Of a stretch of 64,000 nucleotides of DNA, positions 27,949 through 64,000 are shown in pieces. The position numbers and the translations under genes are program-made. This stretch comes from Streptantibioticus silvisoli (lineage in GTDB: Bacteria; Actinomycetota; Actinomycetes; Streptomycetales; Streptomycetaceae): the NCBI RefSeq assembly GCF_027947535.2, contig NZ_JAAGKO020000024.1, positions 1 to 64,000 of the forward strand, written 5' to 3'. Numbering within the stretch: the stretch's first letter is position 1; each line of letters begins with the position of its first letter. The notes under the pieces are model-generated. The model saw only the letters and a list, made by a program, of their open reading frames with translations. It did not search any database and was not told the DNA's origin.

Positions 27949-29030
27949 GTTCTCTCCTTTCCGCGCACAACGCCTGGCCCGTACCCGTCGGCATCCCGGT
28001 CAGGACTGGACGGAAACACGAACAGCACGGTCAGGAAAGGCGGTTGGGCGCTGCCCCTGCGCCTCAAGGGCTCAACGAGCCGGTGGGGGCGAGGTGGTGC
28101 AGGGACACGTGGGGACGGTGGGGGGTGACCGGGGGGTGGCGACGCAGTGGAACGTAGTCTCTTCGACACATGCTTGCAATATGCGTACCAAAGTTCGTGG
28201 AAAATTGACTGTTTGCAGCAAGAAGCCGCGCAAGAACGCAAGACCTTACTCAACCTGCGGCTTCGGCCCCTTGGGTGCCGCCGCCGCGGTCGACCCGCCA
28301 GGGCGGCCCTCCGAGGCAGGGGAGGGTCGGTCGCCGGCGTCCGGCACGGCGTACGGGAGGGACTGCCCGGCGCCGGCAGCCGTGCGCGCGGGGGCGTGGC
28401 GGCGAGGTGATCGACGCCACCGGAGTCCGGTCGGCGATCCGCGTCACCGGGCGTTCCGGCCGACCCCTGCGGAACGCCCCCCGGGCGGCCGTCGACGGGC
28501 ACGGACCTCTCGCACCCGCTCCCCGGCGGTGGTCTCGTCTCTCTCGGCGGATTCATCGCGCCGGACTTCTCCGATCCGACGGCCGTCGAATTGCGCCGCC
28601 CGTGCGAGGAGCGTACCGAATCCCCTTTCTTCGGGAGGCTGTTCCTCCGCAAGGTGTTTTTCCGCCGGATCGCCTGAGCCGTCGCGCCCCGGTCGGCGGC
28701 GACAACTCCCGCCTTGCGCTGGGGAGTGTGCGCCGGGCGGAGGCTGGCGGGGGAAAGTCCATGCTTGACGGGCCGCACGCGGGTACGCCGGGCTGTCGTG
28801 GCTTCCCCGTTCCGCGAGGCGCCGAGGAATCGCACGGCTGAGTTGGCGGCGTCGGCCGGAGGCAACGGCATTGCCGCCGCGAGATCCTTCACCCGTTGGC
28901 GGTGCACCCTCGCGAACGGAATCCGAATAAACATCGTTCCCAACTCCCCGGAGGTCACTGGAAATACGGGAAGTGGCGCCCGGAACCGCAGGTCGCTTGC
29001 AGCGGCTGACCATGAGCTGCGTCGTTGGTG

Positions 29031-29117
29031 GGTGGGGAGGCGGGGCAGCGGTGTGTCGAGACGGGGGCGCGTTGCTGTCTTCGGAAACCGTTGACTGGTC
29101 GTTGACATCGGCAACGG
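29031..29117 (-). repeat. 97-bp repeat family, copy C (minus orientation)
   Basis: Read from 29117 down, it begins CCGTTG, contains CAACGACCAGTCAACG and GCAACGCG, and aligns without gaps to copy B at 61816-61912 (52 of the first 70 positions identical by hand). The inner end is 15 bp from copy A, so the two form a large imperfect palindrome. The outer boundary near 29031 is uncertain. Confidence 0.65.
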
Positions 29118-29132
29118 CCTCGCGTCGCCAAA

Positions 29133-29229
29133 CCGTTGACCTTCGCAACGACCAGTCAACGAATGTGCGAACCGGCACTGCCGCTCCTGCTCGACACGCC
29201 GGAACGAACACCGCTGGCCCGGTTCGTTC
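29133..29229 (+). repeat. 97-bp repeat family, copy A (plus orientation)
   Basis: Aligns gap-free to copy B at 61816-61912 over all 97 positions, 78 identical by hand count. Conserved blocks: CAACGACCAGTCAACGAAT, CGACACGCCGG and CCCGGTTCGTTC at the far end. It lies 165 bp before marR. Confidence 0.75.
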
Positions 29230-29342
29230 GCGGCCGGGCGCGCGTCCCGACGAGTCGTTGCGCGATCCCGTGTGGCGGTCGGGCCGCAGCACCTGCCGGT
29301 GGCGGGGGCGTCCGGAGGTCGCTTGTAGGCCGCGCAGGCAAT

Positions 29343-29366
29343 ACTGTACAGGTGAAACTGGACAGT
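29343..29366. promoter_or_regulatory. candidate MarR operator
   Basis: ACTGTnCAG, 6-bp centre, CTGnACAGT: a 24-bp inverted repeat ending 27 bp before the marR start. Size and position suit autorepression by the encoded MarR dimer. Confidence 0.65.
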
Positions 29367-29393
29367 TCAGGCTGCGGAAGTTAGCGTGCGGGC

Positions 29394-29840
29394 ATGCGTG
29401 AGAACCCGGGCCTTTCGTCCTCGGCCGTTCAGGCGTCGCGCGAGGTCCGTGCGGTCATCAGCCGCTTGCGGCGCCGCATCCTGAACGCCGCCGAGGTGGA
29501 GGACATCACCTTGGGCCAGGCGTCCGTCATGGCCCGGCTGTCCGGCAAGGAGGGCGTCACGGCGAGCGAACTCGCCGCCGCCGAAGGCGTGCGGCACCAG
29601 TCGATGACGGCGACGGTCGCCGCGCTGGCCGGGATGGGGATGGTGGAGCGCAGCCCCGACCCGGATGACGGGCGGCGCCTGCTGATCACGCTGACCGCGG
29701 AGGGCCACCGCCGGGTGGAGGAGGGACGGCAGGCCCGCACGGAATGGCTCGCCGGCCAGTTGCAGGGCCAGTGCACGGAGGAGGAACGCCGGACCGTGAT
29801 CGCCGCCATGGCCGTCCTGGAGCGGCTGACCCACGACTGA
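29394..29840 (+). CDS. MarR-family transcriptional regulator
   Basis: 148 residues: dimer helices (VRAVISRLRRRILNA), winged HTH (~58-100, VTASELAAAEGVRHQSMTATVAALAGMGMVERSPDPDDGRR with the wing DPDDGRR), C-terminal helices (EERRTVIAAMAVLERL). Its likely operator lies just upstream. The downstream isochorismatase-like gene (236-bp gap) is a possible target. Confidence 0.93.
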   Translation: MRENPGLSSSAVQASREVRAVISRLRRRILNAAEVEDITLGQASVMARLSGKEGVTASELAAAEGVRHQSMTATVAALAGMGMVERSPDPDDGRRLLITLTAEGHRRVEEGRQARTEWLAGQLQGQCTEEERRTVIAAMAVLERLTHD

Positions 29841-30076
29841 TCCGACGACGGGCGCGGTGAATCCGACGACGGCAGCCGTGGTTCCGACGGCCGATGCCAC
29901 GGGTCCGCGCCCGGCACCGGCGTGCTCCACCTCCCACTGAGCGTCCTCGACCGCACGCCCGGCCACCGCTCCGTGCCCGCCAGCACTGCCGGCCCACACC
30001 ACGAGACGTCCCCCTACCGCGCCCTACCGCGTCCCACCGCGCCGCACCGCGCCCCCCGTACCCGAAAGGCATCACC

Positions 30077-61815: not shown

Positions 61816-61912
61816 GAACGAACCGGGCGACTGGCGGTGGCCCCGGCGTGTCGGGCCGGAGTCGCGTTGCCGGTTTGCGAATTCGTTGACTGGTCGTTGT
61901 GAATGTCAACGG
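61816..61912 (-). repeat. 97-bp repeat family, copy B
   Basis: Read from 61912 down, it aligns gap-free with copy A at 29133-29229 (78/97 identical) and with copy C near 29031-29117. Its inner end is one base from the CTAG target duplication of the adjacent IS element. Confidence 0.75.
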
Positions 61913-62477
61913 TCTAGGTTCTGCCTGTTGATCATGGTTTTCGTAGCCAGAGGACGAGTGAGGCGAGGTGGAGCCCGGCGAGGTAGCGGTCGGCGAGTTC
62001 GTCCGAAGCGGGTGGCGACGGCGCGGAACTGATTGAGGCGGCAGAAGCAGCGTTCGACGACGTTGCGGGCCTTGTGGCTTTCGGTGTCGAACGCGGGTGG
62101 CCGTCCGCCGACGCAACCGCGCCGCTTGCGGTTGGCGATCTGGTCGGCGCGTTCGGGGATGACGGCCCGGATGCCCCGGCCGCGCAGGGCGATGCGGATC
62201 GCGCGGCTGGAATAGGCCTTGTCGGCCAGGACCTGCGGCGGACGGGTTCTGGGCCGTCCGGTGGTCGACCGGGGGACGCGGACGGCGTTCATCAGGGTGT
62301 CGAAGACGGTCGAGTCGTTGACGTTGCCGGGTGTGACCGTGATGGCCAGTGGCAGGCCCCGTCCGTCGGCGGCCAGGTGGACCTTCGTCGTCAGTCCGCT
62401 GCGGGAGTGTCCGAGCGTCTGGCGAGCCTGCGAGCGTGACGGATCTTCCAGTTCGTCCCCGGTACTCGCCCCCTTTT
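61906..62477 (-). CDS. IS5-family transposase, second frame (orfB, made by -1 frameshift)
   Basis: Continues the catalytic domain in the -1 frame from the AAAAGGGGG run: LGHSRSGLTTKVHLAADGRGLPLAITVTPGNVND, DKAYSSRAIRIALRGRGIRAVIPERADQ and the last catalytic Glu in ARNVVERCFCRLNQFRAVATRF. About 190 residues; no start of its own is needed. Programmed frameshifting is usual in this IS group. The stop at 61906 lies just outside the element. Confidence 0.85.
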
Positions 62478-62821
62478 GCGGGCGCCGGCAGCGTGCCGGT
62501 GGGCACGGCTGATCGTGGAGTCGGCCGAGACCGTCCACTCCACCGCCCCGACCGCGTCGTCTCGGACCTGGGCGTGCTCCAGCAGCCGGGCCCAGGTGTC
62601 GTCCGCCTCCCAGCGCGCGAACCGCTCGTACACGGTCTGCCGGGGACGGTAGCGTTTCGGCAGGTCACGCCAGGGCACACCGGTCCGCAGCCGCCACAGC
62701 ACCCCGTCGATCACCTGCCGGTGATCACGCCACGGACGCCCCCGCCCGTCCGCCGTCGGCAACAACGGCGCTGTCCAACCCCATGCCGCATTGGTCAATT
62801 CACCATGACCAGCCACAGGTC
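61918..62821 (-). mobile_element. IS5-family insertion sequence, complete, 904 bp
   Basis: Flanked by CTAG at 61914-61917 and 62822-62825, a 4-bp target duplication fitting the YTAR preference of IS5 elements. The ends are imperfect inverted repeats that converge on TCATGG about 15-20 bp inside each end. It carries a transposase split over two frames. The second frame reads 12 bp past the left end into host DNA before stopping. Confidence 0.75.
62391..62816 (-). CDS. IS5-family transposase, first frame (orfA)
   Basis: 141 residues: DUF4096-type N-terminal DNA-binding domain (LTNAAWGWTAPLLP, GVPWRDLPKRYRPRQTVYERFARWE) and the first catalytic Asp region WTVSADSTISRAHRHAAGARKRG. After the run AAAAGGGGG (62469-62477) the frame becomes unrelated sequence. 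The full transposase needs a -1 shift into orfB. Confidence 0.88.
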   Translation of the reverse strand: MAGHGELTNAAWGWTAPLLPTADGRGRPWRDHRQVIDGVLWRLRTGVPWRDLPKRYRPRQTVYERFARWEADDTWARLLEHAQVRDDAVGAVEWTVSADSTISRAHRHAAGARKRGRVPGTNWKIRHARRLARRSDTPAAD

Positions 62822-62852
62822 CTAGTGACGCCAGAGACTGTCCCCTTGACGG

Positions 62853-63110
62853 CTATGGGCGCCATTCCTGCTGGTGGGCGGGGTGTTCGGCGTATGACTG
62901 GCCAAGGACTCGCAGCGCGTATGCCAGGCCGGCCGGGCGGGAGTCCGAGGGGTCCATGGCTTTGTAGCTGTTCGCCAGTTGCTCGATCAGGTCGAGCATG
63001 GGGAGATGGCTGTCGAGAAGGGCCTCGCCGCTCAGGGTGCCGGCCGCGTAGGCGTAGGCGTGGTTGTCGTCCATGATGCGTGCGACGAGGAACTCCAAAA
63101 GATCGTCCAT
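62853..63110 (-). CDS. DUF6221-like small protein
   Basis: 85 residues: MDDLLEFLVARIMDDNHAYAY start and an ALRVLGQSYAEHPAHQQEWRP end matching the LRxLAxPYADHPxYxxEWRP close of streptomycete DUF6221 proteins, but shorter than most because the middle is reduced. Function unknown; often in mobile or accessory regions. The 5' end lies immediately beside the second IS element, which may have removed its promoter, and the first IS ends 28 bp past its stop. Confidence 0.75.
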   Translation of the reverse strand: MDDLLEFLVARIMDDNHAYAYAAGTLSGEALLDSHLPMLDLIEQLANSYKAMDPSDSRPAGLAYALRVLGQSYAEHPAHQQEWRP

Positions 63111-63650
63111 GCGGCCATCTCGCGGGTGAGGCGCTTCGGTGGTCGAGCGGCTGTCCGGATGAGGATGGCGGCGAGGTGGCGTGCGGCCTGTTGGGCGATG
63201 GCGAGCTTGTCCGTTCGCATGGCCGGGCCGCGCGATTGCTTGAGGCGGTTGATGTGCCGTTCGGCAGGGTTGCGCTGCTTGTATGCCTCGGCGTCGAAGG
63301 GCGGTGGGCGGCCTCCGTCGCGGCCTCGCCGCAGCCGGTGGCCGACCTGGTCGGACGGCCGGGGGACGACAGCGCGGATTCCGCAGCGCCGGAGGTGATT
63401 GCGGGTCGCGCGGGCTGAATGCGCACGGTCCGCCAAGGCGGCATCGGGTCGGCCTGGTCCGCTTCGCGGAACACGGATGCTGGCCATGACAGTCTCGAAG
63501 GAGGAGGCGTCACCCACCTGGCCTGCGGTGACGCGAAGGGCCAGGGCCCGTCCACCGCTGTCGCCGGCGAGGTGAACTTTCGTACTCCGGCCGTCGCGGG
63601 AGCGTCCGGGGGCGTGATCGTCAGGTTCGGCCCCGGCCCGGCGCCCCTTT
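63032..63650 (-). CDS. IS5-family transposase orfB (by -1 frameshift)
   Basis: In the -1 frame from AAAGGGG the catalytic core continues: GRSRDGRSTKVHLAGDSGGRALALRVTAGQ, LADRAHSARATRNHLRRCGIRAVVPRPSDQ and RNPAERHINRLKQSRGPAMRTDKLA with the final Glu. The last ~25 residues run into the DUF6221 gene, so the true protein end near 63032 includes host sequence. Confidence 0.8.
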
Positions 63651-64000
63651 GTCCTGGCACCGGCACCGCTGTCCTGGCACCGGCACCGCGCTGGTGAGCC
63701 CGGCAGACGGTGGAGTCCACCGAGACGGTCCAGCCGTTGTCGGCATCAACGTCGGCCGCTGCCAGAACTGCGGCGAGGACACGCTCCCAGGTGCCGTCCA
63801 TGGCCGACCCGATCAGGCGTTCATGAGCGGTCCGGAACGAGCCGAGCTCGTCCGGCAGGTCCCGCCAGGGTGAGCAGGTGCGGTACTTCCACGCGACGGC
63901 TTCCAGGGTTCGGCGGTGGTCGGCCCAGCGCCGACCGCGGACCGGATCGGCCGCCATCAGCGGCTCGATCCGGTCCCACGTCGCATCAGTGATCGTTGAT
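63117..64000 (-). mobile_element. second IS5-family insertion sequence, cut by window edge
   Basis: Encodes a different IS5-type transposase, again in two frames. The left end is estimated near 63117, just before the DUF6221 start; I could not define the inverted repeat because the other end is outside the window. Confidence 0.65.
63644..64000 (-). CDS. IS5-family transposase orfA, N-terminus at window edge
   Basis: Reads TDATWDRIEPLMAADP, WKYRTCSPWRDLPDELGSFRTAHERLIG and WTVSVDSTVCRAHQRGAGAR, the N-terminal domain and first catalytic Asp. The start codon lies upstream of base 64000. The useful frame ends at the AAAGGGG run (63644-63650); in frame it continues as unrelated sequence. Confidence 0.85.

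Follow-up and report, generated by a model that had tools for sequence, protein, structure and literature searches.

REPs and REPINs are best known together with a dedicated Y1 enzyme, and bacterial MITEs of DDE transposons are small, non-coding elements with terminal inverted repeats. The GI REPINs of P. fluorescens SBW25 contain, according to the parts of Bertels and Rainey (2011, PMC3116915) used for comparison, invariant inverted 16-mers whose first residues lie 71 bp apart. CGTC REPs, as portrayed in parts of Di Nocera et al. (2013, PMC3733652), occur without a dedicated transposase, mostly as inverted dimers and mostly downstream of genes. The same parts report untagged REP-like families in M. 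tuberculosis, and a term search of that paper's main text was negative for Actinobacteria, Streptomyces and Frankia. No Streptomyces REP family appears in the parts of PMC4681348 and PMC6006769 used here. In the literature searched, mostly outside subscription journals, nothing was found on a REPIN combined with a RAYT in Actinobacteria, and no description was recognised of Streptomyces REPINs or of the family of 34 cores reported below.

The element studied here lies at 29.1 kb of a 64,000-nucleotide stretch of Streptantibioticus silvisoli DNA, referred to as the window. It is probably (at a rough probability of 0.6) a member of a lineage-specific, non-coding, REPIN-like hairpin family which is mostly decaying. 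With the GI REPINs, as far as they are covered in those parts of PMC3116915, it shares a 16-mer spacing of about 71 bp, a variable spacer, one long hairpin, the occurrence of doublets and singlets, and an extragenic position. It differs from them in that no RAYT or Y1 gene and no conserved GTAG tag were found, that there are 34 cores as opposed to 1,422 REPs, that additional 10-bp terminal repeats stand 30 bp outside the cores, and that the host is an actinomycete. CGTC-tagged and untagged REP-like repeats resemble the family, in the parts of PMC3733652 used, as short palindromes that are mostly inverted dimers and mostly downstream of genes; unlike CGTC REPs, it has no fixed CGTC tag and, by eye, no stem of 8-9 bp with a loop of 4-5 nt.

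Anatomy of the 29.1-kb element and of copy C

The element and its surroundings comprise the following features (window positions; basis in brackets).

29049..29201, no strand: whole doublet, an imperfect palindrome of 153 bp consisting of two inverted half-elements (identity profile, folds)
29049..29058, plus strand: left terminal repeat of the CGGYGTGTCG type, kept in six of eight aligned doublets
29089..29116, plus strand: left core, 16-mer CGTTGACTGGTCGTTG followed by N7 and CAACG (pattern search)
29117..29133, no strand: central spacer, variable, forming the hairpin loop (doublet alignment)
29134..29161, minus strand: right core, 16-mer CGTTGACTGGTCGTTG (29146-29161) followed by N7 and CAACG (pattern search)
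29192..29201, minus strand: right terminal repeat, reading CGACACGCCG on the plus strand (identity profile)
29202..29231, no strand: extension past the right terminal repeat, conserved in part (identity 0.41-0.63, background about 0.3; BLAST extensions)
29394..29840, plus strand: gene labelled MarR-like after the sequence-only reading, a neighbour outside the element, with 192 bp from the element to the gene start

The sequence-only reading had described three copies of a 97-bp repeat, A and B at 29.1 kb and C at 61.8 kb. The repeated sequence and the third copy are both present, and the perfect 16-bp inverted repeat CGTTGACTGGTCGTTG lies where it had been placed (29089-29104, plus strand; 29146-29161, minus strand). 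A and B turned out to be the arms of one 153-bp imperfect palindrome and not two separate copies. An ungapped 97-bp match between them with 78 identities was not recovered, A (29031-29127) against B reversed giving 22 of 97; the 78 identities are those of the right arm B (29133-29229, reversed) with copy C (61816-61912). In the registers tried, the left arm A matches C at 62 of 97 positions at best, and in the best A/B register searched (63 of 97) the stretches run into each other, so that the palindrome is compared with itself. As the next-best ungapped matches of B in the rest of the window reach 53 of 97 (with the other arm of its palindrome), 51 and 47, the match between B and C is far beyond background. 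In the window doublet, the 28-nt cores are 17 nt and the 16-mers 41 nt apart.

Copy C is likewise a real repeat, though only half of a second palindrome whose left half lies at C48:64055-64123, past the end of the window (sites outside the window are given as contig:position). This palindrome is interrupted at its centre by two adjoining IS-type insertions, the ends of which were placed by eye.

61844..61911, plus strand: copy C, right half-element of the second doublet (terminal repeat 61844-61853, core 61884-61911)
61917..62821, no strand: first insertion, 905 bp, with a DDE_Tnp_1 transposase match and CTA on both sides
62825..64000+, no strand: second insertion, next to the first, matching DUF4096 (IS4/5-type) and extending to about C48:64049
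C48:64055-64082, minus strand: core of the left half of copy C, past the second insertion

Because both insertions sit at the centre of the doublet, the doublet is older than either of them. REPs have been reported as IS targets (in part of PMC1525189).

Family size, conservation and genomic placement

The source assembly comprises 8.7 Mb in 130 contigs and is 98.11% complete with 2.88% contamination. The exact 16-mer CGTTGACTGGTCGTTG occurs 21 times in this 8.7-Mb genome. With up to two mismatches the number rises to 57, compared with five for the reversed-pattern control; the 57 are not all members, and matches without the second core half (on C2, C37, C61 and others) were left uncounted. 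CGTTGACTGGTCGTTG could encode V-D-W-S-L, and the look-alikes with one or two mismatches on these contigs are taken to be unrelated coding sequence, presumably in polyketide synthase genes. The pattern CGTTG-N6-CGTTG-N7-CAACG with one mismatch yielded 35 matches in the genome and none in the reversed control. Two of them (C48:29123 and C56:72078) were dropped as opposite-strand shadows of listed elements, and a broken copy outside the pattern (C76:35239) was added. The family thus counted consists of 34 copies of the 28-nt core CGTTGACTGGTCGTTG-N7-CAACG, in some of which a base differs, at 24 element sites: 20 cores form ten inverted doublets and 14 are singlets. These pattern searches of the genome, for which the sequence-only reading had recommended BLASTN, disclosed many further copies beyond its three, and the repeat family is beyond chance.

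In eight of the nine uninterrupted doublets, the distance from first residue to first residue of the two 16-mers is 72, 72, 72, 73, 72, 72, 72 and 71 bp, a range of 71-73 bp, and in the remaining, short doublet it is 53 bp; the tenth doublet is the split copy C. An inverted pair of conserved 16-mers at fixed spacing and with a variable spacer, as in a REPIN, is therefore present. The half-element of about 68 bp runs from the terminal repeat (CGGYGTGTCG / CGACACGCCG) through some 30 bp to the 28-nt core. In an alignment of eight doublets, identity to the left of the core is 0.59-0.67 over 40 bp and about 0.3 beyond, which sets a sharp left border at -40. To the right it is 0.52-0.78 up to +30, 1.00 at +31..+40, 0.41-0.63 over +41..+70 and at most 0.34 thereafter, so that this border is soft; extended flank similarity in some copy pairs (BLAST) likewise gives soft edges. 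The left terminal repeat has diverged in doublets C76_173 and C103_10. AAC precedes the left core and ATT the right core in six of nine uninterrupted doublets, AAT being found at one core in C98_43 and C38_64, and TTT in the short doublet. Since left and right arms differ consistently, the doublet has polarity.

Within the eight doublets, the 16-mers deviate at 4 of 256 positions; for the outer arms of 37 bp the figure is 117 of 592 (Fisher p 2e-15, a statistic that ignores shared ancestry). All 20 doublet 16-mers together contain six deviations in 320 positions, five of them C12 to T, and those of the singlets eight in 224. Likeness of the 16-mer is 0.969 in doublets versus 0.934 in singlets (permutation p = 0.051), the direction predicted by REPIN theory.

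Two of the singlets (C76:35239 and C98:45658) each correspond to a left half broken close to the palindrome centre (arm identity 40/40 and 36/40, respectively); the breakage is clear, and the core is mutated in both. Right-type arms were recognised in C38:15932 and two C56 singlets (0/300 shuffles as good); the C41 singlet resembles both arm types (0/300 shuffles) and that on C120 the left type (p 0.003). Arm likeness is weak or absent in seven of the 14 singlets, with p-values of 0.013 (C97), 0.013 (C69:71585), 0.047 (C18), 0.067 (C89), 0.293 (C72:63787), 0.433 (C72:19522) and 0.690 (C69:63784); these p-values are the best of two arm types, uncorrected for two tests. In the singlets of C69 and C89, the core is enclosed by a common short stem with 14-16 of 20 positions complementary. 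C69:63784/71585 and C72:19522/63787 are pairs of singlets in opposite orientation with private core variants (CTGCTC; CGTTGTC).

Genes were predicted with a codon-bias caller of our own, not a published program, for which 22 window ORFs served as the training set. By these calls, 33 of the 34 cores lie outside genes and one, C72:19522, reaches into the final bases of a gene; a coding fragment was rejected on these grounds. Among the 15 sites formed by the 14 singlets and the short doublet, eight contain a predicted stop codon or lie at most 120 nt past one, as REPs tend to do. The distance is 47 nt for C56:71754, 53 nt for C41, 58 nt for C120, 65 nt for C69:63784 and 65 nt for the short doublet C72:8345, which follows a weakly predicted 63-codon gene. 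C89 (108 nt) and C97 (115 nt) lie past stops on the opposite strand, and C72:19522 has the stop within its core. Sites placed otherwise are C18, C38:15932, C56:72067, C69:71585, C72:63787, C76:35239 and C98:45658. Most long doublets have surroundings that are poor in predicted genes, in some cases with IS remnants. An IS110-family transposase gene (C54:28168-29202, L059) is located about 1 kb from a doublet.

Judged by eye, the proteins encoded next to the copies have no common pathway or single function, which was the outcome of the flanking-gene check that the sequence-only reading had called for. A regulator-like predicted neighbour (MarR, AsnC, Crp, TetR, XRE and sigma-70 types; by eye) is present at about nine of the 24 sites. 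At L048 (C72:60864-61684), three tandem predicted 73-codon genes stand downstream of a DNA-binding regulator-like gene; we assume that their products may be of the DUF397 type. A separate palindrome, ACTGTACAG-GTGAAA-CTGGACAGT, at 29343-29366 ends 27 bp before the start of the MarR-like gene and looks like that gene's own operator. A simple consensus scan of 28900-29450 detected no promoter-like site. With no such site, no common neighbours and the separate palindrome nearer to the MarR-like start, the proposal of a promoter cassette or marR-specific site found no support; that of a dispersed miniature palindromic element was supported by the many copies, the fixed geometry, the sharp left border and the hairpin. 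A marR operator as the role of the family was rejected; by eye, only the C18 singlet has another MarR-like neighbour, a MarR-GNAT-like fusion.

Folding, transposase searches and rival explanations

Folded as RNA, the window doublet reached -90 kcal/mol (z -8.2), and as DNA -48.2 (z -5.8); 0/200 shuffles were as good in either case. One long hairpin formed from the doublet, the fold expected of a REPIN, was obtained both for the window copy and in the consensus fold of eight doublets. Six of the 41 pairs in this consensus fold have a compensated change, with a covariation term of +0.39. The check for covariation proposed with the sequence-only reading thus gave a weak signal, and the fold is therefore without covariation support; the 16-bp stem has too little variation to be informative in this respect. 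Five singlets folded with z values of -5.0, -0.9, -2.1, -1.9 and -0.5, and a strong fold is not general.

No match to the Y1 transposase domain PF01797 was found in the genome at E<=10 (assembly 98.11% complete). The same search was positive in 10 of 14 control genomes (six over the cut-off), and PF01797 was found in four of 31 genomes searched, a set that includes the present one without a match. Because the search works in the control genomes, the negative result carries weight. With no Y1 match in the assembly, a RAYT flanked by the repeats was not found either. The Y2 transposase PF04986, looked for as the mark of an IS91-type (HUH) element, had no genome match at E<=1, by a weak model which detected two of 14 controls, none over the cut-off. 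Five of the 34 cores have GT[AG]G in the 12 nt that precede them or the roughly 12 nt that follow, with at most two at one offset. CGTC accompanies six of 34 cores (at most three at one offset, no fixed place), TGTC is near nine of 34 and CCTC near five of 34, so a conserved tag like that of CGTC REPs was not seen; the commonest offset, 20 (three CGTC and five TGTC), falls within the core rather than at its end. As neither a Y1 transposase nor a conserved GTAG tag was found, the family, though it works like a REPIN, is not to be filed as a RAYT-type REP. CGTC REPs also occur without a dedicated transposase, and a missing enzyme alone is therefore compatible with a REP-like family. Possibly the family is an orphan: its enzyme may have been lost, may lie in sequence absent from the assembly or may belong to a different type.

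The half-element of about 68 bp is the building block, two of which, inverted and with the starts of their 16-mers 71-73 bp apart, make up the 153-bp doublet. The doublet may have been copied within the lineage by an enzyme that acts on the single-stranded hairpin and recognises the core. Singlets are half-elements or cores alone, many of them presumably decayed or broken doublets, and the family would now be mostly immobile.

Several observations could also be accommodated by a classical MITE, that is, by a remnant of a DDE transposon whose two ends were joined when the centre was lost and which the transposase of that transposon mobilises in trans. Like DDE MITEs, the family is small, non-coding and equipped with terminal inverted repeats (CGGYGTGTCG/CGACACGCCG), and it has distinct left and right arm types, a size of 153 bp and a sharp left border. 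Unlike them, it has a conserved block, the core, inside the element, a soft right border, and neither a target duplication nor a parent element that could be found. At a tight border, duplications of 4-8 bp were seen in none of the six doublets examined out of ten (permuted control 2.8 at 4 bp and 2.0 at 5 bp), the copies being diverged and old duplications possibly decayed; with a loose right border there were three of six at 4 bp and one of six at 5 bp, below the control (5.0 and 2.4). All eight outer-arm pattern matches with up to three mismatches adjoin counted cores, so that no larger, autonomous parent with the same ends is among them; a diverged or unassembled one may exist. The mutator-type IS between two C98 copies (L057:7609-9077; PF00872, partial match) has 25-nt imperfect inverted repeats of its own and a seemingly interrupted reading frame, and it was rejected as mobiliser. 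Taken with the foldback structure and the geometry of the doublets, the failure to find target duplications favours a single-strand, REPIN-like route over a DDE MITE, which we regard as an unlikely explanation.

It is similarly improbable that the copies are sites recognised by a DNA-binding protein peculiar to the lineage, be it for a regulon or for chromosome organisation. The core is conserved where the flanks are unalignable, and its unit CGTTGAC-N4-CGTTGAC, a direct repeat with an 11-bp period, would suggest contact on one DNA face; the regulator-like neighbours at about nine of 24 sites agree with such a role, but the genome is rich in regulators. Neighbours without a common pathway, the eight of 15 singlet and short-doublet sites after or at stop codons, and the core mutations in both clearly broken half-elements speak against it, and homology that extends through the arms to the terminal repeats is unexpected for simple operators. 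The strong hairpin of the window copy and the five sites 47-65 nt past a predicted stop on the same strand as the core would fit a structured RNA or terminator cassette in 3' untranslated regions. This we consider very unlikely, given that Rfam returned no match at E<=1 (window 28400-29900), that covariation is weak and that most long doublets are in gene-poor stretches. A scan of 28900-29450 that requires a T run found no terminator-like site; Streptomyces terminators often have no T run.

Distribution and significance

The core pattern with up to one mismatch was absent from 393 other genomes of the taxonomic family, which were drawn evenly from a larger group and include none of the same genus. 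A looser pattern allowing no mismatch matched 29 times in the own genome and in none of the 393 others, its reversed control giving one match each in two other genomes. The exact core had no match in the GTDB collection of 84,980 species. No match was obtained in a core scan of viral contigs or by BLAST against plasmids; the own or very near genomes possibly fall outside these scans. In a similarity search of 40 relatives, six contained short matches only (25-42 bp, E 1.2e-4 to 7.1e-4), which are regarded as chance. The copies in related genomes for which the sequence-only reading had suggested looking were thus encountered neither among the 393 family genomes nor in the GTDB scan. An empty-site comparison of the C120 intergenic region (crp-like/MBL-fold, labels by eye) with Streptomycetaceae loci revealed no insertion border; intergenic lengths of this type differ greatly among relatives (72/80 loci; 12 sequences, unalignable by eye). 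The family was seen in this one genome only, and its lineage may be one species or one genus.

Tentatively, and as a possibility we hold to be the less probable one, a hairpin population may have arisen in a single actinomycete lineage with a geometry near that of gamma-proteobacterial REPINs but without a RAYT, and have been spread and kept uniform by some enzyme or DNA-binding protein. If the enzyme was simply lost, the family would be an ordinary relic. As a family restricted to one genome that has the doublet geometry of REPINs, but neither a RAYT nor a tag that could be detected, it would allow one to test whether such populations arise or persist RAYT-free, and its copies would provide strain-level markers for the lineage.
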